Made by a program: the position numbers and the translations under genes. Shown piece after piece: positions 117-19,695 of a stretch of DNA of 64,000 nucleotides. How positions within the stretch are numbered: position 1 is the stretch's first letter; every line of letters begins with the position of its first letter. This DNA is from an uncultured Pelagibacteraceae bacterium (lineage in GTDB: Bacteria; Pseudomonadota; Alphaproteobacteria; Pelagibacterales; Pelagibacteraceae): the NCBI GenBank assembly GCA_902617895.1, contig CACMYJ010000002.1:1-64000 (forward strand), in the 5' to 3' direction. Under the pieces are notes generated by a model. That model searched no databases. It saw only the letters and a program-made list of their open reading frames with translations, and had not been told where the DNA came from.

Positions 117-692
117 TCAACTTTCCTTAATTTTATTTTTTTCGTTACAACGCCTATAGAATTCCTTAAAATTTTCAGAGAAATAATCTAATTTCCAGTT
201 ATTTTTTCTAATATCGAAATAATTTTTAACCTCAAAATTTAAGCCATCGTTTAATGAAATTTCATATATCTCATTTTCCTCAATGAAACCTGATAATTTT
301 TGAGCATATTCTTTTGAATTGTATGAACCTAACTTAAATACTACCCAATGAGCTCTATGATCTAATATTTTTTCTATATGAGTTACTTCAGCGAAAAAAT
401 CGAAGTCGTTGATTTTTATTGGAATATTTTGATTTTCAAATTGGTAGATATTAGCATCACCTTTTGTCGTTAAAAAAGTAAATAAATGATAAACAGTATC
501 ACAATCTTTATAATTCAAAGACAAAACAATCCTATCTCCATGTATAAATTCACCATTCTTAGACATGTAAATAAAATCTTTATCTTTTTCAATTATAGCC
601 CACCCATCATCCTGAGCTCTAGCATGAGGGTGGACTATCAAAAGGATAACAAACGTTACTAAATGAAGAAAAAAGAATAATGATAATCTCAC
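117..692 (-). CDS. Hypothetical secreted protein
   Basis: 191-aa ORF with N-terminal hydrophobic signal-like segment ending HARAQ; no recognised domain. Confidence 0.6.
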   Translation of the reverse strand: MRLSLFFFLHLVTFVILLIVHPHARAQDDGWAIIEKDKDFIYMSKNGEFIHGDRIVLSLNYKDCDTVYHLFTFLTTKGDANIYQFENQNIPIKINDFDFFAEVTHIEKILDHRAHWVVFKLGSYNSKEYAQKLSGFIEENEIYEISLNDGLNFEVKNYFDIRKNNWKLDYFSENFKEFYRRCNEKNKIKES

Positions 693-1335: not shown

Positions 1336-1683
1336 ATGCCAACTGAAAATAATAAAATAATTCTAAGGTTGCTCTTACTAATGGCATTTGCAGATAAAGT
1401 TTTCATGGAAGAGGAAAAAGAATTAATTATAGATATTTCAAAAAAATTGCAAATTCCTGATGATATTAGAAAACAAATAGTTAATGAGATTGAAAAAACT
1501 GAAAATATTACAGAACAGTGCAGAATAACTGCACAACAAATTGAAAGTCAGGATGATAGGAACAAAACAATTAAATTATTAAGTGAATTAATGGCAACAG
1601 ATAAAATAATTCATAAGAAAGAATTATTTGCTATTCAAATTATTGCTGAAGAATGGGGAAAATTTTTACCTAAAGAAGAATAG
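1336..1683 (+). CDS. TerB-like helical protein
   Basis: Pattern LLLMAFADKVFMEEEKELIIDISKKL...LLSELMATDKIIHKKELFAIQIIAEEWG resembles TerB-type repeats; ATG at 1336 preferred over the 1318 start; stop lies 1 nt before the next gene's ATG (1685). Confidence 0.6.
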   Translation: MPTENNKIILRLLLLMAFADKVFMEEEKELIIDISKKLQIPDDIRKQIVNEIEKTENITEQCRITAQQIESQDDRNKTIKLLSELMATDKIIHKKELFAIQIIAEEWGKFLPKEE

Positions 1684-1684
1684 T

Positions 1685-2872
1685 ATGAAATATACCGCGA
1701 TATTGGAAAAATTAAGATCTCATGGATATACACTTCCTCAATCTTTAGCTGAACTTGCTGATAATAGTATTACTCATAATGCTAAAAATATATGGGTTTA
1801 TATGTTTTGGAGTGATGATACTGGAAAAAACTCTTTCATTATGGTTGTTGATGACGGAGACGGCATGAATGAAGATGAATTAATAAATAGAGCCTTAACA
1901 TTCCCAGATCAAGAAAATATTGATAAAGGAGAAAATAACCACTCGGTTTATGGAGCAGGATTAAAAACTGGTTCATTCAATCATTGTAGATCTATCACCT
2001 TAATTACTAAAAAAAATAAGTTATTAAAAAAGACTTTAAATTTTAAGGACGGCATTACCAGCAATATGCCTAATTGCATTAATCATAGATTTATAAAGAC
2101 ACACTTAGAAAGATTTGAAAAACAAAAAAGTGGAACAATTGTTTTATGGACTGATTTAGATAGAATTACTCAACTTCGAGCAGTGGATAGAGGCCCTAAT
2201 TTTTATGATGACTGTGATAAATCAAAGAAACATTTTAAATTAGTTTATCATAAATATTTATTAGAAAATAAAGTAAATTTATATTTTAATGGAACTGAAG
2301 AAATAAATAGAACTAAAGCATTTGACCCTTTCTATAAGAATAACTTACAAACAATAAAATTAGAAAATTCTGAAATAAGTTTTTTAAAAGGTGGTTCTAC
2401 TATCTTGAAACCATATATAATTCCAATAGACACAGGTAAAGAAAATTTAGGTAAGAGCAAAAATGATCTTCAAGGTCTGTACTTTTTAAGAAATAATAGA
2501 GTGATTGATTATGGTGGTTGGTTTGATCTTGGGGAAAAGAATGCAGATAGAATGTGGGCTTCAAATGAAAGATACAATAGACTTAGAGTAGAGGTTACAA
2601 TACCAATTGAAACTAGCAAAGATTGGATAACAACCGATAAGACCAAAGTAATTATCCCAGGGTATGCTGAAAATAAAATTCGAAAATCTTTAATAAAAAT
2701 TAGAAAAGATTATTTAGAAAAAATAGGCCAAATAAGAGAAGATCAAGAAAATGAGCCTGTCAATGAAACATTGAAAAAGAAAAATGAACTAATTAGAATG
2801 CTTAGAAATTCAGTGCTAAATGATGATGAATTACTTAAAATTGAAAAATCAATTAAGGAATTAAATGAGTGA
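1685..2872 (+). CDS. GHKL (MutL/MORC-like) ATPase, HATPase_c_3 type
   Basis: N-box ELADNSITHNA, G1 DDGDGM, G2 GAGLKTGS; ATG at 1685 chosen over the 1628 extension that overlaps the upstream gene. Confidence 0.85.
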   Translation: MKYTAILEKLRSHGYTLPQSLAELADNSITHNAKNIWVYMFWSDDTGKNSFIMVVDDGDGMNEDELINRALTFPDQENIDKGENNHSVYGAGLKTGSFNHCRSITLITKKNKLLKKTLNFKDGITSNMPNCINHRFIKTHLERFEKQKSGTIVLWTDLDRITQLRAVDRGPNFYDDCDKSKKHFKLVYHKYLLENKVNLYFNGTEEINRTKAFDPFYKNNLQTIKLENSEISFLKGGSTILKPYIIPIDTGKENLGKSKNDLQGLYFLRNNRVIDYGGWFDLGEKNADRMWASNERYNRLRVEVTIPIETSKDWITTDKTKVIIPGYAENKIRKSLIKIRKDYLEKIGQIREDQENEPVNETLKKKNELIRMLRNSVLNDDELLKIEKSIKELNE

Positions 2873-5800
2873 GGATGTAAATAATTTAAAACAATTACTT
2901 AATGCTTATAAATTAACATTTGCCTCTAAAAAAGGATTTTCTAATCCTTCAGCTTGGTATCCTCGAACTGCAAAAGAAATTGATAATTTGCTAAAATCTT
3001 TCATCAAAGATTTTTCTGACTCTAAAAAATTTGAAAAAGAATTAAAAGACTTTTTGGAATCTTCATTTGCTCAAGTCATCGAAAATGATCTTACCCTGAT
3101 AGCTAAAAGAGGAGATCATAAAGATTGGCTTACAGAGGAAAGAAAAGTTTGGAAAAATGCAAATAGTACAAACTCGCAGTTTGCATTTTATAAAAGCAAG
3201 GCTGCAATACATCTTGGCAATGGTTTTGATGAAATGGATAAATCAACTGATGAAATTTTATCTTTGTTAGAAGATCCAAAAAGATCTTCAAAATGGATGA
3301 CAAGAGGTATGGTTGTTGGAGACGTTCAGTCTGGAAAAACATCTCATTATAATGGCCTGATTAATAAAGCTGTGGATAGCGGATATAAATTGATAATAGT
3401 TTTAAGTGGAATATTTAACTCCCTAAGAGCACAAACCCAAAAAAGAATTGAACAAAATACAATACATAGAGGCCAGCCTGGAGAATTAAATAAGATATTC
3501 TTTGCTACTGGTACACCTGAATATAAATGGCCTGATGGTGTTAGAAAGGTTTTCAAAGAAAACGATTTTAATACAACCGTAGCATCTGCAATATCCATAA
3601 CCAACAAAGACCCTTTAGTAATGGTTGTTAAAAAAAATGTTTCTATTCTCTCTAGTATTTTAATTTGGTTAAACAAGCAGGGATTAGAAACAAAAGATGA
3701 AGAATGGAAATGGAATGAAGCAAAATGGAGAAATGATGCTATAAGAAATTTACTACCAAAACATCCTCTCTCATGTGACCAACCCATGCTACTGATCGAT
3801 GATGAGTGTGATAGTGCATCAATTGATATTTCTAAACGTTCAAACAAAGGTCCGCAAGATCTTTGGGATGAAGAGCAGCAACATTTATTTCAACAAACTG
3901 ATCCATCTAAAACAAATCAATTAATCAGAAGAATATTAAAATGTTTTAACAAAAGTGCTTATATTGGTTATACCGCAACCCCTCTAGCCAATGTGTTTAT
4001 TAATTATTCATCTCAAAAAAAAGATGAGGGATTAGATATTTTTCCTAACGATTTTATTAAACTCCTAGGAAGGAGAGACGATTATGTTAGTCCTGACAAA
4101 ATATTTGGAATTGCAGATAAGAATATTGATCCAGATGAAGAAATTGTGAGTTTATCAGAAAAAATTGATCCTGAAGACTCCCCACAAGTAAGATGGGTAT
4201 ATGATTATAGGGATGATTTTGATGACCCTATATTTATTAAAGAAGATGGTTCAATTGATCATGACGAGAGAGACAAAAAATATAGAGACGAAGCTAAAGA
4301 TAAGAATGATGTTAAGGGATGGCTCCCACTTTTCCATAGCATTGGACATCAATGCTTGTATAAAGGTGAATTTGAAATACCTAAATCTCTAAAAGAGGCT
4401 ATTAACAGTTTTTTAATAATAATTGCTGTAAGAGATATAAGAAAAAATATTATTCCTCATAATTCAATGCTTATTCACACTAGTAGATTTACGAGTGTTC
4501 AACAAACTATAATTGTCCAGATTAAGAATTACATAGATCATCTAAAAAAAAATTTAGCTTATGGACAAGATGAAAAAGTTAAAGAAAGTATTAAAAATGA
4601 ATTTATAAAAATTTGGAATGAAGATATAAAAAAAAACTTTAATAACCAAAAATTCCCAGCCTCAAAAAAAATAAAATTTGATCCAGTTTGGAATAAGATA
4701 GCTGAAACCATAGTCTCAGAAACTAATCCTATTGGTATCGTTCAAATAAATAGTTTATCAGATGATGTACTTGACTATGATAATCATAAAAAAGGGTGGA
4801 ATGTTATAGTAGTTGGTGGTGCAGCTATATCAAGAGGAATTACCTTAGAGGGTTTAACAGTAAGTTACTTTACAAGAATTGCCAAAATACCGACTCTAGA
4901 TACTCTTGTTCAAATGGGAAGATGGTTTGGCTACAGGAAGGGATATGAGGATTTATTTAGAGTTTATGTGCCTAAAATCCTTCATATTTTATTCAGACAA
5001 TTTTCATTCACAATAGAAAGAGCAAGAGAAAAATTTGGAGATCTCTCTGAGCAAGGAAGAAGACCCGCAGATTACGCCTTTGAAGTCCCATGCTTTAATG
5101 GTTGGAATTTAACTGCAAAAGCAAAGTCTAAAGATATGTCAACTATTCAAGAGCCTTACTCATACATAACATCAATTAGCAGAACTCCAGTATTGTATTT
5201 TAAAGATAAAGAGAGATTACATAATATTGAGTTAACAAGAAAACTAATTGAAGGTTTAAGTGACAACTATGAAACTGAAAAAGAGATAAATAAAAGATTA
5301 ACAAATGATAAAATTTGGAGCCCCGTTCCGTTTGATGATCAAAAAATTGATAATAACTTATCTCATGAGGAAATTAGAAATGAAATTTTTAAAAAAGGCC
5401 ATAAACAAGTAAAATTTAATTCTGCTTATCTTTGGAGAAACGTGAATATAGAACAAATCACAAAATATTTGTATAATTATAAAATTCCGCCACAAACAGA
5501 ATGGACAAGTAAAATAATTGCGCAACAAATTAGAGCGTTAAAAGAATTTAAAAAATTAGAAAGCTGGAATTTAGCTATATTCTCAGTAAAAAGTAGTGAA
5601 AAATATTCTAACATTAAATTCAAAAAGGATAAAATTGACATAACACTTCAACAAAGATCAGTTTATAATAACCCTCATCCAAACTTTTTTTCTATTAAAA
5701 CATTATCTGATCCTAATGCAGAATTTATAGACATGAGTGCTGATGAATATAACGAAGGTATTTATAGTTGGCTAAATCTTTATAAAAAATCTAACAAATG

Positions 5801-6092
5801 CGTGATCTTCAGAAGGAAAATTAATTATATGCCAGCGGAATTTAAAACTAAGATAAGACAAAAAAGAAAATCAGGTTTGATTGTTATTTATCCTTGGTCA
5901 ACGGAGTTTAAAGAGAATTTAAACCCAGAAAAAGATATATATATGGGCTGGCAGGTTGTTATACCTCCAACAAGAAGAGAAGGAGATGAGGAAAAAAATG
6001 AACTTATGTATGATCAGGCATGCAATCAGGCTGCTAGAGAGGCAAGACAAGAAAAAATTAAAGATCTTTTTGATCCAGATCTTTACCAATAA
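2865..6092 (+). CDS. Z1-domain SF2 helicase-like ATPase
   Basis: Walker A GDVQSGKTSH, Walker B LLIDDECDSASID, motif III-like GYTATPLANVFI, motif VI-like DTLVQMGRWFGYRKGYEDLFRVY; 8-bp overlap with upstream gene. Confidence 0.88.
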   Translation: MSEDVNNLKQLLNAYKLTFASKKGFSNPSAWYPRTAKEIDNLLKSFIKDFSDSKKFEKELKDFLESSFAQVIENDLTLIAKRGDHKDWLTEERKVWKNANSTNSQFAFYKSKAAIHLGNGFDEMDKSTDEILSLLEDPKRSSKWMTRGMVVGDVQSGKTSHYNGLINKAVDSGYKLIIVLSGIFNSLRAQTQKRIEQNTIHRGQPGELNKIFFATGTPEYKWPDGVRKVFKENDFNTTVASAISITNKDPLVMVVKKNVSILSSILIWLNKQGLETKDEEWKWNEAKWRNDAIRNLLPKHPLSCDQPMLLIDDECDSASIDISKRSNKGPQDLWDEEQQHLFQQTDPSKTNQLIRRILKCFNKSAYIGYTATPLANVFINYSSQKKDEGLDIFPNDFIKLLGRRDDYVSPDKIFGIADKNIDPDEEIVSLSEKIDPEDSPQVRWVYDYRDDFDDPIFIKEDGSIDHDERDKKYRDEAKDKNDVKGWLPLFHSIGHQCLYKGEFEIPKSLKEAINSFLIIIAVRDIRKNIIPHNSMLIHTSRFTSVQQTIIVQIKNYIDHLKKNLAYGQDEKVKESIKNEFIKIWNEDIKKNFNNQKFPASKKIKFDPVWNKIAETIVSETNPIGIVQINSLSDDVLDYDNHKKGWNVIVVGGAAISRGITLEGLTVSYFTRIAKIPTLDTLVQMGRWFGYRKGYEDLFRVYVPKILHILFRQFSFTIERAREKFGDLSEQGRRPADYAFEVPCFNGWNLTAKAKSKDMSTIQEPYSYITSISRTPVLYFKDKERLHNIELTRKLIEGLSDNYETEKEINKRLTNDKIWSPVPFDDQKIDNNLSHEEIRNEIFKKGHKQVKFNSAYLWRNVNIEQITKYLYNYKIPPQTEWTSKIIAQQIRALKEFKKLESWNLAIFSVKSSEKYSNIKFKKDKIDITLQQRSVYNNPHPNFFSIKTLSDPNAEFIDMSADEYNEGIYSWLNLYKKSNKCVIFRRKINYMPAEFKTKIRQKRKSGLIVIYPWSTEFKENLNPEKDIYMGWQVVIPPTRREGDEEKNELMYDQACNQAAREARQEKIKDLFDPDLYQ

Positions 6093-6097
6093 TATTG

Positions 6098-7084
6098 ATG
6101 GATATAGCTAAATTTCAGAGCAAACTAAATAAGGCTTGGAAAGAAATATTAGATAAAAAAAAAACCGATAGTAAGTATGAGAAAGGAGCTCAAGTTAAAG
6201 CTCATGATGATTACTGGCTTACTTTAAATAAAAATAATTTACCAGGAATTATCATTAAGGGAGATAATCAGAAAATTAATTTAAATAAATTTCCTAAAGC
6301 GAAAGGTTGGAGTTTTTATTTTACAAATAGTGAAATAAAAATGAACGTTAATGAGGAAAAATATAATGATTTTTTTATTAAATTAATAAATTTGATTCTA
6401 ACTAAAATTTACTTAGAAAAATTAAGTGGGGAAAAAAGTATAAATTGTTTTTTAAAAAATCTGATTTTTGCCAAAGATTTTTTTGAGGAAGAGAATGTAC
6501 CAAGAAAGCTTTCTACTGAAGAACAAATAGGGTTATTTGGTGAAATTCAAACTTTATCACAAATAATCAGTAAAAAACTAAACAATAATGAATTATCCCT
6601 TGCTTCTTGGACAGGCCCATCTAGGAAACACGATTTTACTTTTTCAAAAATACTCATTGAGGTAAAAACAACTAGCTCGGAAACACAAAAAATACATACC
6701 TCAAGTACAAATCAAATTGCTCCTGTATATGATAAAAATCTAAAATTAATTTTTATTCAAATTATCAAAAATAATAATGGTTTGTCTTTGAATGAAGTTA
6801 TCGAGGATTATTCTAAGTTGTTAAAAGACGAGTCTGAGATACTTTATAATGATTTTATTTTAAAGTTAACCCAGTGCAGATATCTTGATATTCATAAAAA
6901 CGAATACAAACAAAAATATATAATTGATAAATTTAATTTTTTTAATATTAATGAGAAATTTCCATATATTAAAGAATACGTAGTTCCTGAGGAATTATCT
7001 GATTTATCCATAACTTATAAGATTGATCTTGATAAATGTGAAGAATTTAGAATAATTGAAGATGAACTTTTTAAAGATTTATGA
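6098..7084 (+). CDS. PD-(D/E)XK motif protein (DUF4420-like nuclease)
   Basis: EEQIGLFGEIQTL...SWTGPSRKHDFTFSKILIEVKTTSS gives E...D...EVK catalytic pattern; located between Z1 and AIPR genes. Confidence 0.8.
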   Translation: MDIAKFQSKLNKAWKEILDKKKTDSKYEKGAQVKAHDDYWLTLNKNNLPGIIIKGDNQKINLNKFPKAKGWSFYFTNSEIKMNVNEEKYNDFFIKLINLILTKIYLEKLSGEKSINCFLKNLIFAKDFFEEENVPRKLSTEEQIGLFGEIQTLSQIISKKLNNNELSLASWTGPSRKHDFTFSKILIEVKTTSSETQKIHTSSTNQIAPVYDKNLKLIFIQIIKNNNGLSLNEVIEDYSKLLKDESEILYNDFILKLTQCRYLDIHKNEYKQKYIIDKFNFFNINEKFPYIKEYVVPEELSDLSITYKIDLDKCEEFRIIEDELFKDL

Positions 7085-9135
7085 AATCTGATTTAAAACA
7101 AAACCTAAAAGATGCATTTGTTAAAAATTTCTTTCAAAGAGTTAAAAATGAAGTAGAGGATAGTGATGATCAACCAGCATCAGTATTAACGAAAATATAT
7201 ACAGATATTTTATATGATAATGGAACAATATCTGATTATGAACTTTTATATTTTGAAAAAGAACTTTCAAATAAGACAAATATTAAAATAAATGGTTACT
7301 CTTTTAGTGAAGAAGATTTACGTTTAGATCTTTTTGTAACTCATTATGATCCTTCAGATCAACTTCAAGAAATTAAATTCAGTCAAATTTCAGAATTAAT
7401 TGAAAGTGCAAAAAACTTTTATACACATTCAACAAAAAAACTTTATCAAAATATAAACAAAAAAGAAGATGCTTTTGATATTGCTAAGAATATTTATAAA
7501 TATGCCAAAGAAATAACAACTATTAGAATTTTTGTTTTAACAAATTCTCTTTGTGAAAAAAATCCTACTATTGAGCGAGAGGGTAAGATAGAATTTCAGA
7601 GCTTTCTTTTAGACACAAGAAGAATTTATAGCTCAAGTTTAGGCGGTCCCGATGCCACTAATATAATAATTGATTTTACTAAGTTTAAAGAAAAAGTAAG
7701 ATGTATGTTGGCTCATAAAACGTCAGATAAAATAAGCAGTTATATGGCTTTTATACCTGGAGAAGTACTTTTCAACATATATAGGTTATTTGGTCAAAGA
7801 TTGTTGAACCTTAATGTTAGATCTTTTTTACAATTAGGAACAAAAATAAATAAAGGTATTAAAGAAACATTAATTAATGAACCAGAGAGATTTTTTTCAT
7901 ATAATAATGGAATTGTAGTTGTTGTAGATAATATTGATGTTGGACAAGATAAAGATGGGCTTTATTTGAAGTCGGCATCAGGCTTTCAAATTGTAAATGG
8001 AGGTCAAACAACAGCAACTTTATTCAGAACAAAAAAACAAGATAATAAAATCAGATACGACAATGTTGTAGTACCTGCAAAAATAACTTTAGTTAAAAAA
8101 GAAAGTTTAAGCGAAGTTGTTCCAAAAATTTCTGAATTTGCGAATACTCAAAATATTGTTAAAAAGGCAGACTTTTCTTCAAGACACCCTTTCCACATAA
8201 ATATTAAAAATCTTTCTAATAAAATTAGAACTGCAGAGGGACAACAGTGGTTTTATGAGAGAATGCGCGGTGAGTATCAGATGCAAAAAATGAAACAGAA
8301 AGATCTTGGAAAAAATAAAAAATCTAAAATACTTGAAGTTTCACCATCAAATATGAAAATGACAAAAGAAGATTTGGGAAAATTCATTAATTGTTGGCAC
8401 TATTTAGACCCACATATTGCTTGTACAGGTGCGCAAAAAAGCTTTGTCACTTTTATGAATTTATTAAATGACAAAAAATTTCATGAAAAAATAGATGATG
8501 ATTTTTTCATAAAATATTGTGCAATTGCAATTTTATTTAATAAAACATCCAAAATTATCAAAGATAACGAAGCAATTGGAGGATATAGATCGCAAGTATT
8601 AAATTATACGATTTCATTAATATCATATCACACTAGTAGAAAGATTAATTTTAATTTAATATGGGCTGACCAAGATATCTCTCATCAATTAAGAAACATT
8701 ATTAATAAATTAAGTTTTAAGATTTATGAAACAATTCAAAAAACTGCTAGTGGAAAAAATATATCTGAATGGTGTAAACAAGAAGAGTGTTGGCAAGATT
8801 TAACAGATAGAGATAAATTATTTACTTTTACTGATACGCCACCTGAATTTACAAATCTTAAAAAAGTTGCAGGAAAACCAATTAAAGTTGCTAAAGAAAT
8901 ATTTTCTCCAGAAGATATGGATAATATTAAAAAATGCAAAAGTTTGACTACCAAGCAGTGGTCTGAAATGATTGCTTGGGCTAATGAGACTGACGAATTT
9001 CACTATATCCAACTTCAAATAGCCACAAGTTTATGGTTTATGTCTTTAACTAACTGGAAAAGACAACCGTCGCCAAAGCAGGCAAAAAGTGCGATTAAAA
9101 TGATTGAAAAAGCTGAAGATGCTGAAATAATTTAA
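7081..9135 (+). CDS. AIPR family (abortive-infection phage resistance, AbiR-like) protein
   Basis: FFSYNNGIVVVVDNI...GFQIVNGGQTTATLF and FANTQNIVKKADFSSRHPFH are AIPR hallmarks; 4-bp ATGA overlap with upstream gene. Confidence 0.85.
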   Translation: MKSDLKQNLKDAFVKNFFQRVKNEVEDSDDQPASVLTKIYTDILYDNGTISDYELLYFEKELSNKTNIKINGYSFSEEDLRLDLFVTHYDPSDQLQEIKFSQISELIESAKNFYTHSTKKLYQNINKKEDAFDIAKNIYKYAKEITTIRIFVLTNSLCEKNPTIEREGKIEFQSFLLDTRRIYSSSLGGPDATNIIIDFTKFKEKVRCMLAHKTSDKISSYMAFIPGEVLFNIYRLFGQRLLNLNVRSFLQLGTKINKGIKETLINEPERFFSYNNGIVVVVDNIDVGQDKDGLYLKSASGFQIVNGGQTTATLFRTKKQDNKIRYDNVVVPAKITLVKKESLSEVVPKISEFANTQNIVKKADFSSRHPFHINIKNLSNKIRTAEGQQWFYERMRGEYQMQKMKQKDLGKNKKSKILEVSPSNMKMTKEDLGKFINCWHYLDPHIACTGAQKSFVTFMNLLNDKKFHEKIDDDFFIKYCAIAILFNKTSKIIKDNEAIGGYRSQVLNYTISLISYHTSRKINFNLIWADQDISHQLRNIINKLSFKIYETIQKTASGKNISEWCKQEECWQDLTDRDKLFTFTDTPPEFTNLKKVAGKPIKVAKEIFSPEDMDNIKKCKSLTTKQWSEMIAWANETDEFHYIQLQIATSLWFMSLTNWKRQPSPKQAKSAIKMIEKAEDAEII

Positions 9136-10145
9136 CTAACATTAGAAAGTTTTAAATTCTCTGATTTTATTAAATACTTTAAAACTTCGATACAAATTTT
9201 TTCAACTACATTAATAGGAACGGCATTTCCTGCTTGTTTATAAGCTTGTAAATCTGAAACTTTGAACTTAAAACTTTCAGGAAACCCTTGAAGTCTAAAT
9301 ACTTCTCGTGGTGTAAGTCTTCTTGGATTTTTATTTTCACCTCTAAATATTAAACACTCACCTCCATCTTTATAATATCTTGAAGATATTGTTCTAGTAC
9401 TCTTTTCATTAGGGTTTGTTAATCGATAGCCAAATCCTTTACCATTTTTTTTATTTCTTTCTTTTCTAATTTGGTGACTTTTCCATAATTTATCTGAGAT
9501 AATATATTTTTTTTCAACTTTACTGTCTAAAAAATCTTTCACTTTGACTTTTTTTAAAGATGGTTTGGGATATTTAAATTCACCTTTATGATTTAAGAAG
9601 CCAACTATATAAATTCTCCTCCTACGTTGTGCTAAACCAAAATCTTGAGCATCTAGTACTTTGGGGTCTGGCACATAATAGTGTTTTCTTAATTTAGTTA
9701 AAATTATAGATAAAACTTTGCCATTATCATAATTTTCTAAATGTTGAACATTTTCTAAAATAAAAGTTTTTGGTTTTTTTATTTTAAGAATTTCATAAAT
9801 ATTAAAAAATAAATCTCCTTGGTCTTTGTCTTCAAAACCATGCGCTCTTTTTAAATAATTTCTATTAGATATACCTGCTCTCGAAAAAGGTTGGCACGGA
9901 AATCCAGCTAACAATATATCGTGGTTGGGGACTCTATTTTCTATCTCATATTTTTTTACTGATTTGATATCTTCTATCAGATGTGTATTAGGGAAATTTC
10001 TTGAATATGTTTGTTGGCTATATTCATCTATTTCTGAATACATTTTGCAATCATCATGTAATCCAAGTTTTTTTGTAGCTTTTGTAAGTGCTATTCTCAT
10101 ACCCCCAACTCCAGCGAATAAGTCTAAAGATTTTATAATTTTCAT
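9132..10145 (-). CDS. dcm: DNA (cytosine-5-)-methyltransferase
   Basis: Motif I SLDLFAGVGGMRIAL, motif IV GFPCQPFSRAG, motif VI ENVQHL, motif VIII QRRRRIYIVGF, motif X QAGNAVPINVV. Confidence 0.93.
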   Translation of the reverse strand: MKIIKSLDLFAGVGGMRIALTKATKKLGLHDDCKMYSEIDEYSQQTYSRNFPNTHLIEDIKSVKKYEIENRVPNHDILLAGFPCQPFSRAGISNRNYLKRAHGFEDKDQGDLFFNIYEILKIKKPKTFILENVQHLENYDNGKVLSIILTKLRKHYYVPDPKVLDAQDFGLAQRRRRIYIVGFLNHKGEFKYPKPSLKKVKVKDFLDSKVEKKYIISDKLWKSHQIRKERNKKNGKGFGYRLTNPNEKSTRTISSRYYKDGGECLIFRGENKNPRRLTPREVFRLQGFPESFKFKVSDLQAYKQAGNAVPINVVEKICIEVLKYLIKSENLKLSNVS

Positions 10146-11239: not shown

Positions 11240-11397
11240 TGGATATTATTCACGAGATAAGAGTTGAGGAGGTTAGGGATATTGAAGAAGGTAAGCATTT
11301 TTATAGAGTTTACATGGAAATAAATGAAACTATTAAAATAATTGGAACTTCTAAAACAAAACCTCAATTAGTTAGATATGTATCGGAGGTGTATTAA
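11239..11397 (+). CDS. Small hypothetical protein (52 aa), not in the ORF track
   Basis: MDIIHEIRVEEVRDIEEGKHFYRVYMEINETIKIIGTSKTKPQLVRYVSEVY*; TAATG junctions with both neighbours. Confidence 0.6.
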   Translation: MDIIHEIRVEEVRDIEEGKHFYRVYMEINETIKIIGTSKTKPQLVRYVSEVY

Positions 11398-12107
11398 TGT
11401 CAGTAGAATATTCCTTTTCACCTTCAGAGCTTGATTACAAAGCAAAAAAATGTCCACGATGCTTTTATATTCATAAACATAATAAAATAAATCCAGGTGA
11501 TCGTCCTCCACCAGTATTTTCAAGCTTTGATGCAGTGCAAAAACCTTACTTCAAAACCACTAATACCAAAACCTGGTGTGATGATCTTCCTGATGGTGAA
11601 ATTATGGATAACAAAGAACTTCCAGGTAAAATTGTTTCAGATGGGTTAGTGGATAATAAAAAACGTAAATTTAAATTAGCAGGTAATCCAGATATCGTAA
11701 TTAAATTTAAAGATGGTAATTTTGGAATTGTTGATTTTAAAACTACAATAATCTCTTTAGATAAAGCAGAGAATTACAGATATCAACTTGAAGCTTATGC
11801 GCAAATATTTTCAAGTCCAGGGTCAACCAAAACTGCCCCAACTCCAAAACTAAATCCAATTACACACATGGGAATTTTACAATTTTATCCTGAAGAAATA
11901 ACTGGTCATACAGATCATAATTGTGATTTTAAAATGAAAACTTTCTATTCGTCATTAAAAAGAGATGTAAAAGGTTTTTATGATTACATCACAAGATTAA
12001 TAGATTTGCTTGAATTATCAAAAGTTCCTGAATTCAGTGATGATTGTAACTTTTGTAATTTTACACAAAAACAAATTAATTTATTGGAGAACGAAAATGA
12101 AAAATAA
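11397..12107 (+). CDS. Cas4/RecB-like PD-(D/E)XK nuclease, phage type
   Basis: GNPDIVIKFKDGNFGIVDFKTT...YRYQLEAYA; N-terminal KKCPRCFY and C-terminal CNFC cysteines suggest an Fe-S Cas4-like fold. Confidence 0.78.
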   Translation: MSVEYSFSPSELDYKAKKCPRCFYIHKHNKINPGDRPPPVFSSFDAVQKPYFKTTNTKTWCDDLPDGEIMDNKELPGKIVSDGLVDNKKRKFKLAGNPDIVIKFKDGNFGIVDFKTTIISLDKAENYRYQLEAYAQIFSSPGSTKTAPTPKLNPITHMGILQFYPEEITGHTDHNCDFKMKTFYSSLKRDVKGFYDYITRLIDLLELSKVPEFSDDCNFCNFTQKQINLLENENEK

Positions 12108-12375
12108 TTTAGATGAAATTATAAAAGAAAGATTAGAAAATAGAAAACAATGGAGAAATTATCTTGGATGGTCTTTAACACATAGGTATTTAGCATCTAA
12201 TGCCAAAAGGCTATATTATAAAGATAAACCATTATTAAATTTAATATTGAAATTGTATTTTCTACCTTACAACACAATGAAGTATTTTTTTTATGTGTGT
12301 GACCGTCATAAGTTTGATATGATTGAAACTGAAATTCGTATGCTTAAAGGTGATAAACATGACGAAAAAAAGTAA
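12097..12375 (+). CDS. Small hypothetical protein
   Basis: ATG at 12097 (MKNNLDEIIKERLENRKQWRNYLGWS...), overlaps upstream gene; shorter than the track ORF starting at 12010. Confidence 0.45.
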   Translation: MKNNLDEIIKERLENRKQWRNYLGWSLTHRYLASNAKRLYYKDKPLLNLILKLYFLPYNTMKYFFYVCDRHKFDMIETEIRMLKGDKHDEKK

Positions 12376-12745
12376 TGACTTCAATCGTAATCCGAATGGG
12401 TCTAATCAGTGGGAAACTAGATCTAATGAGGAAATACAAATAATAATAAATAGACATCCTAAAAACTGGACTAAAAAAGACTTTAGGGGTGAGGGTAAGA
12501 ACAACCAAAAAAAGATACTAACTCGCAAAGAAACTGAGAGAGCTGGGCTTGTATTTGGAAATAAGGGCGGAGTAAAACAATATCTAAATGGAAAACTGAA
12601 GTGTTCTATGTGTGGTTTTTTTAAAAATTTGGATGAATTTCCAGATGATAAATACGGATCATCAAATGGTAAAAGAAGTAATTGCTCAAGCTGTGATATT
12701 ATCAGAAATCAAAAGTACAGGGAAAGTGTTAAAGAAATATCATGA
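12359..12745 (+). CDS. Zinc-ribbon protein (phage/HNH-associated type)
   Basis: CSMCGFFKNLDEFPDDKYGSSNGKRSNCSSCDIIRNQKYRE: two CxxC knuckles. Confidence 0.5.
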   Translation: MTKKSNDFNRNPNGSNQWETRSNEEIQIIINRHPKNWTKKDFRGEGKNNQKKILTRKETERAGLVFGNKGGVKQYLNGKLKCSMCGFFKNLDEFPDDKYGSSNGKRSNCSSCDIIRNQKYRESVKEIS

Positions 12746-13314
12746 AATTTAGAGAATATTTGGATAATCAAATTCAAAAAGGAAAAATTGAGTGGGAAAG
12801 TAGAAGTGAACTTATCAGAGCATCTGGTAGCAAAGCAAACGGAAATACAAATAAAATTTTAAAACAATATGAGAATAAATTTAAATTTGGGTCAGTCACT
12901 GAGATAAAGAACAAAGAAATTAATAAATACTTCAAAGCACAGCCAAAGAATAGTTTTATAAGTGTAGAAGGCGCAGTAAAAATTATTAATAAAAATTTAC
13001 CTATAAAAGCTAAAATTAGCGAAACTATAATTTATAATAGACTTAGTGACCCAAAGTTTAATATAAATAATCTAAAAGGGCAGACACTTAATAATCAGAT
13101 ATCAAAGACAGCACAATATGATGTTAAAGTTTCAGATGCTTATAAACAGAAGTTAAAAGCAATCAGAAAACCTGGTATATACTTATATTTAGAGACAACA
13201 CAAAGCGGCAATACAACCTTAAGATTAAAAACTAATGACGAATATGGAAATCTAGATAAGTCATTTCCTCCCAATGAAGATAGTATTAATATTATTAAAA
13301 ATTTAGTAAATTAA
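12742..13314 (+). CDS. Hypothetical protein
   Basis: 190-aa ORF, ATGA overlap with upstream gene. Confidence 0.55.
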   Translation: MKFREYLDNQIQKGKIEWESRSELIRASGSKANGNTNKILKQYENKFKFGSVTEIKNKEINKYFKAQPKNSFISVEGAVKIINKNLPIKAKISETIIYNRLSDPKFNINNLKGQTLNNQISKTAQYDVKVSDAYKQKLKAIRKPGIYLYLETTQSGNTTLRLKTNDEYGNLDKSFPPNEDSINIIKNLVN

Positions 13315-13619: not shown

Positions 13620-14063
13620 ATGAGCGCAGAAGTATTAAATTTTAATTGGAAATGTAAACATACATGGAGAAGAAGTGCCAAGAATACAGCATGGTGCTTA
13701 TTAGGTTGTGCCATTGGGGATTTTGGAACTATACTATTTTTTCAATTAACTAAAATTCCATTCCCAGTTTTAAGTATTATGATTTTAGCTATTATTAATG
13801 GTTTAATAACAAGTGTAATTTTAGAGACATTTATTTTAATGAAACAAAGCTTTACTTTTCAAAAAGCTTTGAAGACTGCAATGGGCATGAGCTTTATTTC
13901 TATGATTAGTATGGAAGTCGCTATGAATATCACAGATTATGTATTAACAGGCGGTGCAATGCTTACTTGGTGGGTAGTGCCAATAATGTTAGCGGTTGGA
14001 TTTGTTACTCCTTGGCCTTATAACTATTGGAGGCTTAAAAAGCATAATCAGGCCTGTCATTAA
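13620..14063 (+). CDS. DUF4396-like membrane protein
   Basis: HTWRRSAKNTAWCLLGCAIGDFGTILFFQ... with several TM helices. Confidence 0.65.
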   Translation: MSAEVLNFNWKCKHTWRRSAKNTAWCLLGCAIGDFGTILFFQLTKIPFPVLSIMILAIINGLITSVILETFILMKQSFTFQKALKTAMGMSFISMISMEVAMNITDYVLTGGAMLTWWVVPIMLAVGFVTPWPYNYWRLKKHNQACH

Positions 14064-14090
14064 ATCAAATTAATTAACCAAAGGACTAAA

Positions 14091-14276
14091 ATGAGAATTT
14101 TAAAAGAATTAGAAGATGCAAAATTAGTGATTGTTGATTTAGAAGTAAGGTTAGGTGAAGAGGTAAGAAGTGCGCCAACCTTATGTGCAAAATATAAAGG
14201 TAAAATAATACCTCTTAATACTGCACATGATGGAAGACCGATATTAATGAAAGAAGAAAATTCTATAGAAAACTAA
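14091..14276 (+). CDS. Small hypothetical protein
   Basis: 61-aa ORF with AAAGGA upstream of ATG. Confidence 0.4.
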   Translation: MRILKELEDAKLVIVDLEVRLGEEVRSAPTLCAKYKGKIIPLNTAHDGRPILMKEENSIEN

Positions 14277-14279
14277 ATT

Positions 14280-14669
14280 ATGATTGAGCAGATTAGTATT
14301 TATTTAACAGCAATGATTTTAGGAATCATGTTATTCTTTTCTTTTGTCATTGCACCAGTAGTATTTACTACTTTAGATGAGGATAATGCTAGAAAGTTTA
14401 TAAGAAGAATATTTCCTTTTTATTATAATGTAAATTTAGGAATTAGTTTAATTGTTCTAATAACTTTTTTATTCTTAAGTAAATTAGGAATAGATTTTTA
14501 CCTAATTTTAGTAATCACACTTTTATTTGCTACCTCAAATTACTTATTAATGCCTTTGATTAATAAATTTAGAGATGAAAAGCAGGATAAAAAATTTAAA
14601 TATTCGCACTTTTTATCTGTCTTGATTAATTTTATTCAAATGTTATTTTTAGTAGTTTTGCTAATATAA
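14280..14669 (+). CDS. DUF4149-like membrane protein
   Basis: Four TM helices; FFSFVIAPVVFTTLDEDNARKFIRRIFPFYY pattern. Confidence 0.65.
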   Translation: MIEQISIYLTAMILGIMLFFSFVIAPVVFTTLDEDNARKFIRRIFPFYYNVNLGISLIVLITFLFLSKLGIDFYLILVITLLFATSNYLLMPLINKFRDEKQDKKFKYSHFLSVLINFIQMLFLVVLLI

Positions 14670-14763: not shown

Positions 14764-15651
14764 TTATTTATCTTTCACGGAAATTAATTCTGGATACTTA
14801 TCAAATAAAATTTCAGCAGGTCTCTCCCCAGACCTTAATGGATCAATCAGCATTACTTGGCTAGGCATAATATTAGTTAAATTGCAATCTGTACCAAAAA
14901 GTTCAAAATAATTAAGTATATCTGAATACCATCTCACTTCAGCTTCCTTTGGTGATGTAACTTCAAATGCAACCCTATTTTTACCAAAGTGTTCGAGCAC
15001 TCGAGTTAATACATCTGAATTACTATCATGAAGTTCAATTTCTTCATGATCAATAAGCATTGAAAATGCTCCATATTCAAAAAAAGGTTCTGCGCTTTCA
15101 ACAATTTGTTTTAATGTTGCAGGAGTATTTTTTTTTGTTTTATCCCATCCACTTTCTGGATGATGTTCATAAATTATATTCATTCCATTTTTAATCGCAT
15201 GATTGCACCAAGCTTTAATTTGATTTTCAGGGATGTCTCCAAATGTATTCATGAATTCCATTGCAGAAAATCCTAAATCTGCCGCAACATCAATTGCTTC
15301 ATTTACTTTTCCCTTTTTAAAAGCTTTTATAAAATAACCATGATCCAAGTAAGGCTCAATCGAGTGTTTTTTGTAAAGATCATTTTTACGTTCTAACCAT
15401 TCCTTTGGATGTCCCAGAACTTGCATTGTTGCAATTTTAACATGGTCAATCCTGTTACCAGCAACCTCTAGAAAGTCTTCTAATTCACGAAGTCCCATTC
15501 TTTCGTGGTACCAAGGACCTTCATCAAAACCCACATCTTTCAACCATAGTTGTGATTTAGTTCTGGGCTTGGGTTCTATAGCATTTAAATCAAATACTTT
15601 TGATATCGAATTTTTTGTTTTATGCATGTTTTTTGCTTTTATATTAGTCAA
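14764..15651 (-). CDS. Phosphosulfolactate synthase (ComA)-like TIM-barrel protein
   Basis: GLRELEDFLEVAGNRIDHVKIATMQVL..., FEVTSPKEAEVRWYSDILNYFELFGTDCNLTNIMPSQVMLIDPLRSGERP resembles ComA family ends. Confidence 0.6.
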   Translation of the reverse strand: MTNIKAKNMHKTKNSISKVFDLNAIEPKPRTKSQLWLKDVGFDEGPWYHERMGLRELEDFLEVAGNRIDHVKIATMQVLGHPKEWLERKNDLYKKHSIEPYLDHGYFIKAFKKGKVNEAIDVAADLGFSAMEFMNTFGDIPENQIKAWCNHAIKNGMNIIYEHHPESGWDKTKKNTPATLKQIVESAEPFFEYGAFSMLIDHEEIELHDSNSDVLTRVLEHFGKNRVAFEVTSPKEAEVRWYSDILNYFELFGTDCNLTNIMPSQVMLIDPLRSGERPAEILFDKYPELISVKDK

Positions 15652-15778
15652 ATAGATAAATTTCTAACTAAATTAGACATTTTTACAGTTCTTGAGGATG
15701 AAAAAAAATATAATTAGTTGAAAGACCCATAATGAACACGTTATACTATGTGTATCAATATTCTCAAGGGGGGAAATT

Positions 15779-16852
15779 ATGCGTAAAATTCTAATATTAA
15801 TATTAATGTCGTTATTCTCGTTTGTATCCATTGGAAATGCAGATGTGAATTTCGCTGGCAAAACAGTTACATGGGTTGTGCCATTTAAAGAAGGTGGTGG
15901 TACGAGTAGATTTGCAAGATTTATTCAACCTTTCTTAAAAAAATATTTACCTGGAAATCCTGATGTCCAAATCATGCACATACCAGGAGGTGGAGCTATT
16001 AAAGGTTCAAATTACTTTGAAAAAAATGCTAAAGCAGATGGAACTTTTATTTTTGGATGCTCAACTTCAGTAATAGTCAATGTTGCTACTGGAAATCCAC
16101 TTGTTAAATATAATCTTAGTGAATATCGACCAGTAGTTTTGTTACCACAAAATACTCATTGGTTCACACGTTCAGATTTAGCTGAGCCTCACGATCTATC
16201 AAAAATTAAAGAAAGAAAATTGGTTCTCTACGCATTGAAAACTCCAGCATCTGCAGATTTATTCCACATATGGATTTATGAGAAACTTGGCATCAAAGGA
16301 GCTAAACCTATACCTGGTCTTTCATCTTCAGGAGGTTATCAAGCATTCTTAAGAGGTGAAATTCATCTAAGTTCACATGGTGCAGCGAATTATGTAAAAA
16401 AAGTTAAGCCTGAAATAGAAAAAGGAAAAGTTGTAGATTTAATGACATTAGGAATTATTGGAGCTGACGGTTCAGTTTCTAGAAATCCTTTGGCACCAAA
16501 TGCACCTACATTTCCTGAAATGTATGAGAAGGTAAATGGTAAAAAACTTGAGGGTGATGATTTAGAAGCGTACTATGCAATAGGTGCTGCATGGTCTCAA
16601 GCATCTAAAGCAATGATGCTTCCAGCAGGTGCATCCGATGAAATAGTAAAAGCATACAGAGATGCAGCTATAAAAATGACAAATGACCCAGAGTTTAAGG
16701 CTAAAGCTGTAAAAGCTCTTGGACCATTTCCATTAATCATAGGAGAAGAAGCAGGTGAAATTATTAAAAAGGCTGCAGTATTTTCAGATACTACTAAAAA
16801 GCAATTAAATGCAGCTCTAAAGAAACATAAATTCACATATAGAGTTCAATAG
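15779..16852 (+). CDS. tctC: Tripartite tricarboxylate transporter substrate-binding protein (TctC/Bug family)
   Basis: Signal peptide; TVTWVVPFKEGGGTSRFARFIQPFLKKYLPGNPDVQIMHIPGGGAIKGSNYF. Confidence 0.85.
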   Translation: MRKILILILMSLFSFVSIGNADVNFAGKTVTWVVPFKEGGGTSRFARFIQPFLKKYLPGNPDVQIMHIPGGGAIKGSNYFEKNAKADGTFIFGCSTSVIVNVATGNPLVKYNLSEYRPVVLLPQNTHWFTRSDLAEPHDLSKIKERKLVLYALKTPASADLFHIWIYEKLGIKGAKPIPGLSSSGGYQAFLRGEIHLSSHGAANYVKKVKPEIEKGKVVDLMTLGIIGADGSVSRNPLAPNAPTFPEMYEKVNGKKLEGDDLEAYYAIGAAWSQASKAMMLPAGASDEIVKAYRDAAIKMTNDPEFKAKAVKALGPFPLIIGEEAGEIIKKAAVFSDTTKKQLNAALKKHKFTYRVQ

Positions 16853-16868
16853 AACAAATAAAAAAAGT

Positions 16869-16898
16869 GCTGCTAGCTATTAGCTAGCAGCTTTTTTT
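16869..16898 (+). terminator. Strong intrinsic terminator / attenuator between tctC and tctA
   Basis: GCTGCTAGC TATTA GCTAGCAGC followed by T7; next gene's ATG at 16899. Confidence 0.9.
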
Positions 16899-18884
16899 AT
16901 GGAACAATTATTAGCTGCACTTTTTCAACTTTTTGAGCCTACTCATTTAGCATTTCTATTTGCAGGTACTTTACTTGGTTTAATTGTTGGTATTCTACCA
17001 GGTATGGGTGGAACATCAGGTTTAGCTCTTGTTTTACCTTTTGTTTTTACAATGGAACCATCACATGCTCTTGCAATGATGATTGGAGTTTTAGCTCCTA
17101 CGACAACTTCTGATACTTTTCCTGCTGTGCTTATGGGAGTACCTGGTACTGCAGGATCTCAAGCAACAGTAATGGATGGTTTTCCACTTTCCAAAAAAGG
17201 CATGGCTGCAAGAGCGTTAAGTGCTGCCTTTAGTGCTTCATTGCTTGGAGGTATCTTTGGAGCTTTTATATTATCTATATCTATTTATTACGCCATCCCA
17301 ATAATAATGGCTTTTGGATTTGGAGAACAGTTCCTTTTAGTAGTTCTTGCTTTATTAATGGTGGGAGCTCTTACAGGTGACAATTTATTTAAAGGTATTG
17401 CATCATGTTTTTTAGGATTAATTATTGGATCAATTGGAACAGCCCCAATTACAGGAGATCCAAGATACACATTTAATACATTATATCTTTTAGAAGGTGT
17501 TCCTCTCGTTGTTGTTGGACTAGGATTGTTTGCAATTCCAGAAATAGTTGGCCTACTTGATTCAAAAGGCTCAATTGCAAAATCACTTAATACCAAAAAA
17601 GGGTGGTTCACAGGCTTAAAAGATGTAGTAAAAAATTGGTTTTTAGTTTTAAGATGTTCTACTCTTGGTTGTCTAGTTGGAGCTTTACCCGGTTTAGGAG
17701 GAACAGTCGTTGACTGGATTGCATATAGTCACTTAAAACAAACGACAAAAGATACTTCTCAATTTGGTAAAGGTGATATCCGAGGCGTTATAGCACCTGA
17801 GTCTGCTAATAATGCTAAAGAGGGTGGAGCATTAATTCCAACATTAATATTTGGAATACCTGGATCTGGTAATAAAGTTTTATTACTTGGAGGTTTTGTT
17901 CTAATAGGAATTGAACCTGGTTTAGATATGGTAACAACAAACCTTGATCTTACCTATCTAATGATTTGGTCATTAGCTATTGCAAATATTTTAGGTGCTG
18001 GGATTTGTATGGGTTTTTCATCCCAAATTTCAAAATTCACTCTAGTTCCATATTACATACTTGCACCTGTCATGGTTTGTTTAATATTTTTTGCAACATT
18101 TAATATTAATAGAGACTGGTATGATTTTATTGGATTATTGTCATTTGGTATAATTGGTATTACTTTTAAAAACTTTGGTTGGTCAAGACCTGCACTTTTG
18201 ATAGGATTCTTTTTATCAAGCAAAGTTGAACTCTTAAGCTATCAAACTCAAGCAGTATATGGTTTAAGTTTTTTATCCCGTCCAGTTTCAATAATTCTTA
18301 TAATTTTGTGTCTTGCTACTATCGTTCTTTTGACAAAACAAAAGTTTGATAGCAATTATAGATCTGATCTTATTAAAGGTAAGCTTACTCAAATTTATTA
18401 TATAGTCATATTACTCTGTCTACCTCTATCTATGATTTGGTTTACTAGTAGTTTAGATTATCGTGCTAACTTGTTTCCAATAAGTCTAAGTGTAATAGCT
18501 TTATCACTCTTAGTTTTTATACTTATTATAAAAATTGCTGACTTAAAAAATTTATCATTTTTAAATAATACATTTATGAGATTTGCTCGATCAAATATTT
18601 TTGAAATAAGTGGTAACTTTAATAATCAACTTTTTTATTATTTTAGTTTTATTGGTTTCCTATTAATGAATTTTATATTTGGTTTTCCAATTGCTGCAGC
18701 ACTTTTTATTAATATATTTATATTATTTCATAATAGAAAAGCTTATGTGTCATCAATTTGTATTTCTGCTGTATTGATGGTAATACTCTGGTCGTTATCA
18801 TCCTTGCTAACTTTACAGTTTCCAAATGGTTTGATAGGATTATTAATTGACTTACCTTGGTGGCTAGGTGGGCAATTGAATTAA
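16899..18884 (+). CDS. tctA: TctA permease with C-terminal TctB-like domain (fusion)
   Basis: LLGLIVGILPGMGGTSGLALVLPF and LVGALPGLGGTVVDWIAY duplicated TctA motifs; about 150-aa extra C-terminal 4-TM segment. Confidence 0.87.
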   Translation: MEQLLAALFQLFEPTHLAFLFAGTLLGLIVGILPGMGGTSGLALVLPFVFTMEPSHALAMMIGVLAPTTTSDTFPAVLMGVPGTAGSQATVMDGFPLSKKGMAARALSAAFSASLLGGIFGAFILSISIYYAIPIIMAFGFGEQFLLVVLALLMVGALTGDNLFKGIASCFLGLIIGSIGTAPITGDPRYTFNTLYLLEGVPLVVVGLGLFAIPEIVGLLDSKGSIAKSLNTKKGWFTGLKDVVKNWFLVLRCSTLGCLVGALPGLGGTVVDWIAYSHLKQTTKDTSQFGKGDIRGVIAPESANNAKEGGALIPTLIFGIPGSGNKVLLLGGFVLIGIEPGLDMVTTNLDLTYLMIWSLAIANILGAGICMGFSSQISKFTLVPYYILAPVMVCLIFFATFNINRDWYDFIGLLSFGIIGITFKNFGWSRPALLIGFFLSSKVELLSYQTQAVYGLSFLSRPVSIILIILCLATIVLLTKQKFDSNYRSDLIKGKLTQIYYIVILLCLPLSMIWFTSSLDYRANLFPISLSVIALSLLVFILIIKIADLKNLSFLNNTFMRFARSNIFEISGNFNNQLFYYFSFIGFLLMNFIFGFPIAAALFINIFILFHNRKAYVSSICISAVLMVILWSLSSLLTLQFPNGLIGLLIDLPWWLGGQLN

Positions 18885-18900
18885 ATAAATAGAATTTATA

Positions 18901-19695
18901 ATGACCGATGTAACATTTCCTAAATTGCCTTTTATAAAAAGAAAGGAAAAACCTCGTGAGACAGGCATAAATTATGTTAGGGCACCTGTGATGGTGGGAA
19001 ACTGTATAGATGATTACCTTGAAGCATATGCAAACCTTGTTGATATCTTTAAGATTTCTGGAAAACAAGGTGCAATGATGAGCAAAAAATCACTTTTGAG
19101 ATTTATCGAAACCTGCAAAAAGCATAGTGTTCAAGTTGCATTAGGAAATCCAATTATGGATGTTGCAATGTCCGGTGGCAAGGAAGTGGTAGATGATTAT
19201 CTAGATACTGTTGTTAATCTTGGTATTGATATAATTGAAATTTCAAGAATAGCTCGTTCTTTAGATGATGATGAGATGTGTAGACTGATTGAGAATGCAA
19301 CAGGGAAAGGGATAAAAGTTATTAATGAGGTTGGTGTTGCCTTTGCACATTCCAAGGTTATCGAGGAAGAAATTTTTGTTGAACGAATTAAAATGCAATC
19401 TAAAAGATTTATTGAGGCTGGTTCCTGGAAAATATTACTAGAATCTGAGGGTTTAACAGAAAATCTTGACAAGAAAGATTACAGATGGAATGTAGTTGAT
19501 AAAATTATTAGTCCATTAGAATTGAATCAGTTTATGGTTGAAGCTGATGATCAGGACGTATTATCTAAATATATAGAAATCTATGGACCGGGTATAAATA
19601 TGATGGTTGATCATAGTAGAGTTCTCAAAATGGAAGATGCTCGAATTGGATATGGACCATCTCAATCCTTATGGGGTAAAGTAGTAAAATATTAG
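18901..19695 (+). CDS. Phosphosulfolactate synthase (ComA)-like protein
   Basis: KISGKQGAMMSKKSLLRFIETCKKHSVQVALGNPIMDVAMSGGKEVVDDYLDTVVNLGIDIIEISRIARSL...GKGIKVINEVG matches ComA family pattern. Confidence 0.7.
   Translation: MTDVTFPKLPFIKRKEKPRETGINYVRAPVMVGNCIDDYLEAYANLVDIFKISGKQGAMMSKKSLLRFIETCKKHSVQVALGNPIMDVAMSGGKEVVDDYLDTVVNLGIDIIEISRIARSLDDDEMCRLIENATGKGIKVINEVGVAFAHSKVIEEEIFVERIKMQSKRFIEAGSWKILLESEGLTENLDKKDYRWNVVDKIISPLELNQFMVEADDQDVLSKYIEIYGPGINMMVDHSRVLKMEDARIGYGPSQSLWGKVVKY

Follow-up and report, generated by a model that had tools for sequence, protein, structure and literature searches.

Genes and features of the locus

The window, a stretch of 64,000 nucleotides, begins at the first base of its contig (CACMYJ010000002.1) in an uncultured Pelagibacteraceae genome of 1.17 Mb, 22 contigs and 84% completeness. 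ORF calls place one tight operon on the forward strand (1336-9135) and a convergent Dcm-type gene on the reverse strand, together a six-gene cassette at 1336-10145 (Table 1) that agrees with the five co-directional genes and convergent C5-methyltransferase described in a first-pass annotation of this DNA. The spacing of the TerB, GHKL, Z1, DUF4420 and AIPR genes is that of one operon, with gaps of 1 bp (TerB/GHKL) and 2 bp (Z1/DUF4420) and overlaps of 8 bp (GHKL/Z1) and 4 bp (DUF4420/AIPR); the AIPR and Dcm genes overlap tail-to-tail by 4 bp. Promoter and terminator scans were no better than shuffles or were uninformative.

In a profile search of the cassette proteins, all six families score over the Pfam curated cut-offs, which bears out the GHKL ATPase, Z1, PD-(D/E)XK, AIPR and C5-Dcm families of the first-pass annotation and identifies the first gene, which it had missed, as TerB. 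By sequence inspection, the catalytic motifs are intact in the GHKL, Z1, DUF4420 and Dcm proteins. The GHKL protein is of the MORC/MutL type, with an ELADN N box, DDGDGM (G1) and GAGLK (G2), and its closest PDB sequences are MORC ATPases, albeit as weak matches. Z1 keeps Walker A (GDVQSGKT), DDECD and QMGRWFGY, and the Dcm protein carries PCQPFS. PDB sequence searches with AIPR, Z1 and DUF4420 returned nothing useful.

Table 1. Features of the cassette and its surroundings (window positions unless a locus handle precedes them)
Feature	Position	Strand	Evidence or remark
Probable TerB-fold protein, 115 aa, heads operon	1336-1683	+	Pfam TerB 26.5 bits against a cut-off of 24.4 (8e-6)
GHKL (MORC/MutL-type) ATPase, MzaB-like, 395 aa	1685-2872	+	HATPase_c_3 1.4e-20; NCBIfam MzaB 4e-35, under its cut-off
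Z1 SF2-type helicase/translocase, MzaC-like, 1075 aa	2865-6092	+	PF10593 4e-61; MzaC 8e-140, under its cut-off
DUF4420 PD-(D/E)XK nuclease, MzaD-like, 329 aa	6095-7084	+	PF14390 3e-42; MzaD 2e-27, under its cut-off
AIPR protein, MzaE-like, 684 aa	7081-9135	+	PF10592 4e-76, AIPR_N 4e-31; MzaE 2e-109, under its cut-off
Dcm-type cytosine-C5 DNA methyltransferase, 337 aa	9132-10145	-	PF00145 (DNA_methylase) 5e-82; PRK10458 Dcm 3e-68
Exchangeable segment: Z1 and most of DUF4420	2872-7000	+	Swapped as a block in AG-461-A11 (L035)
Small divergent gene up2, 101 aa	933-1238	-	Possibly part of the mobile unit
Signal-peptide family member	117-692	-	
Other members of that family	L040:9687-10247; L038:3561-4118; L029:1964-2527; L026:453-1103 and 11768-12304		
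Cas4-like cluster	11397-13314; L038:14165-16070; L037:15727-19276		First gene of the L038 cluster 83% identical
Third Z1 type	L029:8006-10513; L030:7733-10270; L031:7356-9899		

Relation to Mza and other predicted systems

Mza (MzaABCDE) is a validated anti-phage system, as cited in PMC9523054. Homologues of MzaB, MzaC, MzaD and MzaE lie in the same operon order in the window (GHKL-Z1-DUF4420-AIPR; E 2e-27 to 8e-140), but all four score below the NCBIfam equivalog cut-offs (121 of 850, 467 of 1500, 96 of 420 and 367 of 1050 bits, respectively). The same profile library gave no match to MzaA, the sigma-factor/ankyrin protein, among the ten window genes between 117 and 13314. The window cassette instead has TerB first and a convergent Dcm gene, and its AIPR protein is 684 aa long as against 588-606 aa in four MzaA-carrying loci. 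Because the core scores fall far under the cut-offs and MzaA is absent, the SAR11 cassette is, judging from its proteins' sequences, a relative of Mza and not Mza itself. MzaA does occur in four of the relatives that we retrieved (L085, L087-L089), one of which has an MzaC with a score of 1003 bits, and this links this kind of cassette to Mza.

A putative 'Type II' system with Z1, a DUF4420-type nuclease, a C5-methyltransferase and AIPR, MORC-associated, has been proposed as defense and is likened by its authors to Mza, at ~20% identity (PMC9523054). Compared by description, its gene set is the same as that of the window cassette; the sections of that paper available to us mention neither TerB nor block exchange. 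The first-pass annotation had overlooked both this earlier proposal of a near-identical gene set and the closeness to Mza. That annotation did name the right precedent: Iyer et al. (2008; PMC2292703) predicted MORC/paraMORC-Z1 neighborhoods from context and, as in the window, these combine a GHKL ATPase with an SF2 helicase, a restriction-endonuclease (RE)-fold nuclease, AIPR and Dcm. TerB is not mentioned in the portions of that paper accessible to us, and Candidatus Pelagibacter is among the species in its Fig. 2 legend, so the presence of this kind in SAR11 is probably not new. That listing and the eight SAR11 carriers described below also weaken the earlier view that such a system is unexpected there.

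Among the best 16 AIPR loci elsewhere in Pseudomonadota, the GHKL-Z1-DUF4420-AIPR order is complete in 12 and partial in one, and three further complete loci come from Coriobacteriia, Myxococcales and Bacteroidales; none carries TerB. The methyltransferases of these relatives are mostly longer (~500-600 aa) than the 337 aa of the window copy. The gene linkage thus recurs across genomes, in eight from SAR11 and at 15 complete loci elsewhere. The homology to MzaB-E, the shared order and the MzaA of some relatives make the SAR11 cassette, the 'Type II' set and Mza in the strict sense look like offshoots of a single kind. Relative to the literature examined, as far as its text was accessible, the TerB lead gene and the Z1-DUF4420 block exchange appear new, and that literature offered no mechanism for Mza-like systems.

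With its families, Mza homology and gene order in agreement, the cassette is almost certainly an anti-phage defense of the MutL/MORC-Z1-AIPR (Mza) kind, in line with the defense role that the first-pass annotation had proposed, and from these we infer the activity of the window copy.

Distribution and mobility in SAR11

AIPR proteins 50-98% identical to that of the window occur in Pelagibacteraceae single-cell genomes, which confirms the SAR11-like source initially proposed. Of 297 genomes of the family, 4 have an AIPR protein and 12 a Z1 protein above the Pfam cut-off (for Z1, 13 at E 0.001), a rarity that marks the cassette as an accessory trait. The GHKL-Z1-DUF4420-AIPR operon and convergent Dcm gene are present in eight SAR11 genomes, seven with TerB in front; AG-390-C22 (L041) is without TerB and without the last ~50 residues of GHKL.

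The same d5/d6 flank (window 13620-14669) is found in the window and in AG-461-A11 (L035), and also in L037, where it adjoins the TerB end of the cassette. Other copies, placed by gene similarity or inspection, sit near his genes (L036 and L038), gltX (L041), a NAD-kinase-like gene (L040) and, in reverse orientation, an rRNA-methylase-like gene and tuf (L039/L024). In the window, tuf starts at 28207, 18 kb downstream of the cassette, so that 'next to the translation core', as first described, is true only loosely. This spread over several loci and both orientations fits horizontal mobility of the cassette in SAR11. No integrase was identified at the SAR11 cassette loci; no relatives turned up when genome contigs were scanned with a single protein or in two scans of viral contigs, and phage and plasmid records yielded only distant AIPR (6 and 22 records).

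The backbone genes (TerB, GHKL, AIPR and Dcm) are under purifying selection (dN/dS 0.07-0.12). Streamlined SAR11 genomes maintain a large and functional-looking mobile defense cassette (dN/dS about 0.1).

Block exchange of Z1 and DUF4420

The window and AG-461-A11 share the locus, and their TerB, GHKL and AIPR proteins are 97-98% identical and their Dcm proteins 93%, whereas identity is 48% for Z1 and 42% for DUF4420. At the DNA level, identity is 94-100% over TerB and GHKL, drops to ~60% near 2870, at the GHKL/Z1 border, remains at that level over Z1 and most of DUF4420, and recovers to 92-99% near 7000, just ahead of the stop codon of DUF4420. Synonymous divergence (dS) between the two is 0.16 for TerB, 0.11 for GHKL, 0.11 for AIPR and 0.28 for Dcm, as against 1.45 for Z1 and 1.50 for DUF4420; in the flanks it is 0.65 for d5, 0.58 for d6 and 0.10 for up2. 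It follows that the backbone was shared between the lineages more recently than the d5/d6 flank, and that the history of the Z1-DUF4420 block is a different and older one.

Z1 and DUF4420 divide the eight cassettes alike, into an alpha type (window, L036 and L039) and a beta type (L035, L037, L038 and L040), with L041 apart from both; alpha and beta are 48-50% identical in Z1 and 41-45% in DUF4420. TerB, GHKL, AIPR and Dcm group differently. In AU tests on all eight, with p-values that are descriptive because the groups were named after the identities had been seen, a beta clade was rejected for GHKL (6e-5), AIPR (2e-59) and Dcm (7e-4), and a grouping of the window with L035 was rejected for Z1 (5e-27) and DUF4420 (5e-4).

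The sharpest exchange pair consists of two assemblies, and a chimera in either would mimic an exchange. Although the relevant genomes are mostly single-cell assemblies, we find it barely credible that the exchanged block is an assembly artifact of single-cell amplification: the breakpoints lie in homologous sequence and coincide, or nearly so, with gene borders; the beta module occurs in three single cells besides L035, thus in four independent cells; and chimerism is rare in such data (PMC11247762). When L035 was removed as a check on mis-assembly, the incongruence of AIPR survived (beta clade rejected at 8e-6), whereas GHKL (0.29) and Dcm (0.06) no longer rejected the beta clade; the case for block exchange leans most on the L035 pair and on AIPR.

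These comparisons indicate that Z1 and DUF4420 are exchanged as one block between otherwise near-identical cassettes. Both types keep the motor and nuclease motifs (in DUF4420, the GLFGE, HDF and E-x-K residues), and the two proteins would behave as one functional pair. The exchange site suggests where the cassette varies in its contest with phages.

Mobility and block exchange also bear on whether this could be a recruited DNA-repair or chromosome-maintenance operon and not defense at all. Such an operon would account for the MutL/MORC-type ATPase, TerB proteins are tied to stress responses, and Vsr-like genes adjoin related operons at two loci (L078 by profile, L079 by similarity). We nevertheless judge it very improbable, as the cassette is rare, patchy, mobile and block-exchanging, unlike repair genes, and is homologous to the validated Mza system.

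TerB, AIPR and the methyltransferase

TerB heads seven of the eight SAR11 cassettes (54-97% identical) and none of the 15 complete cassettes elsewhere, and three cassette copies exceed the Pfam TerB cut-off. The AF2 model has a pLDDT of 79.5, and its top PDB matches are chains of 2h5n, which we take to be a TerB-like structure, at Foldseek probabilities of 0.94-0.96 and an E value of 0.6. The first gene thus belongs to the TerB family by profile, with moderate support for the fold because of that E value. AG-390-C22 (L041:4705-5742 and 3183-4718) lacks TerB as well as the C-terminal tail of GHKL, and a DUF2779 protein lies in front. This joint absence hints that the tail may be where TerB binds.

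AIPR gave an AF2 model with a pLDDT of 83 and a pTM of 0.44. We do not claim it as a nuclease, because its fold matches (PD-(D/E)XK and ParB-like) are weak, cover part of the chain and have E values of 0.35 or worse, and because its N-terminal domain lacks conserved E-x-K residues. An abortive-infection reading would make AIPR the toxic effector and the other genes its sensor and switch, with a methyltransferase that is only loosely linked. The family is annotated as phage abortive infection, and AIPR is strongly conserved over the SAR11 copies, both module types included; yet no catalytic site is recognized in AIPR, and nuclease and helicase are always linked, so we regard this reading as somewhat unlikely.

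The Dcm protein aligns over its whole length, including the recognition-domain region, with PDB 3me5/3lx6, which are annotated only as cytosine-specific methyltransferase, and the NCBIfam E. coli-type Dcm model matches as well (3e-68). A TIS[SA]RYxKDGxExL motif is common to all eight SAR11 Dcm copies. On the basis of this alignment, model match and shared motif, we predict a CCWGG-like target for all eight. The window holds 65 CCWGG sites against 34.7 expected, so that there is no depletion and no avoidance signal.

A proposed mechanism

Our best explanation of the cassette as a whole, which we think likely, is that SAR11 carries a Mza-like anti-phage system of several genes that moves horizontally and works much as proposed here. 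The proposal takes gene content, motifs, conserved order, mobility, block exchange and purifying selection as direct results, and adds by interpretation the anti-phage activity of the window copy, the methylation target, the clamp and TerB roles, which protein cuts and what is sensed. The Dcm-type enzyme would C5-methylate the host genome at the predicted CCWGG-like sites. The MORC/MutL-like GHKL ATPase, together with AIPR, would form an ATP-gated DNA clamp and switch, and TerB might serve as a small regulator of the ATPase, a role that is a guess. Invading DNA would trigger the GHKL switch, upon which the Z1 translocase and its partner nuclease DUF4420 would attack that DNA. Z1 and DUF4420 would be a matched pair that diversifies by block exchange into a stable backbone.

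The block exchange argues against the simplest account of self-marking. As in restriction-modification systems, the methyltransferase is linked to a helicase and a nuclease; unlike in those systems, the effector pair is exchanged independently of the methyltransferase. A classical system, in which the Dcm-like enzyme protects CCWGG-like sites, Z1 and DUF4420 cut the same sites when unmethylated, and GHKL and AIPR are accessory, would explain why a methyltransferase adjoins all eight SAR11 cassettes and nearly all relatives. Adjacency to the operon is no proof of restriction, and swapping a site-specific Z1-DUF4420 should uncouple cutting from protection, yet this pair diverges strongly between the window and L035 whereas their methyltransferases have stayed alike, down to the same recognition-domain motif. 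We therefore rate classical restriction-modification as distinctly unlikely, and the first-pass proposal that the methylase marks self for a Z1-nuclease effector is put in doubt by the swap.

Since the swap leaves the Dcm-like methyltransferase behind, Z1-DUF4420 is probably not the seat of sequence-specific self/non-self recognition; exchange of a site-recognizing pair should expose the host. We infer that self recognition lies in the backbone or in a non-sequence signal, with Z1-DUF4420 as an attack or phage-range cartridge. Z1-DUF4420-Dcm operons without GHKL and AIPR, which also speak for restriction-modification, are found in three other SAR11 genomes (L026:5436-11667, L027:6899-11849 and L028:7087-12024), and these trios make a restriction-type origin of the pair plausible. 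The L026 operon has two adjacent Dcm-like genes.

Quite possibly, though we hold this tentatively, the SAR11 cassette is a distinct Mza-like subtype in which TerB replaces the sigma-like MzaA as first gene and homologous recombination swaps Z1-DUF4420 cartridges into an otherwise constant chassis of GHKL, AIPR, Dcm and TerB. The module for attack or recognition would then diversify against phage, with the self-marking part left fixed. The cassette adds TerB to the parts list of Mza-like systems. Among the six proteins, the natural swap separates a constant chassis from the exchangeable Z1-DUF4420 pair, and the part that determines phage range and the part that recognizes self can thereby be sought by direct test.

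Neighboring genes

The small gene up2 possibly belongs to the mobile unit: a 65% identical copy adjoins the cassette at another locus in AG-390-C19, and its dS between window and L035 resembles that of the cassette backbone and not that of the d5/d6 flank. Small proteins with an apparent signal peptide and no Pfam match recur beside SAR11 cassettes and other Z1 loci (Table 1), and similar-looking secreted proteins beside the cassettes of L036, L039 and L041 are only 15-22% identical to that family. Between the cassette and the translation operons, the window holds accessory genes at 14764-19695 (sugar isomerase-like, TctC/TctA-type uptake and aldolase-like). The first of these, the sugar-isomerase-like gene at 14764-15651, was ruled out as an empty-site marker, as among 118 family genomes it matches only its own. 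The surroundings of the cassette are thus variable as well.

Another recurrent neighbor of SAR11 cassettes is a cluster that comprises a Cas4/exonuclease-like PD-(D/E)XK protein, a protein weakly matching endonuclease VII, and two unknowns; it is perhaps a second, separate defense or phage-derived unit. Finally, three genomes of the window's genus have a third, more distant Z1 type (~835-847 aa), accompanied by one or two Dcm-like genes.
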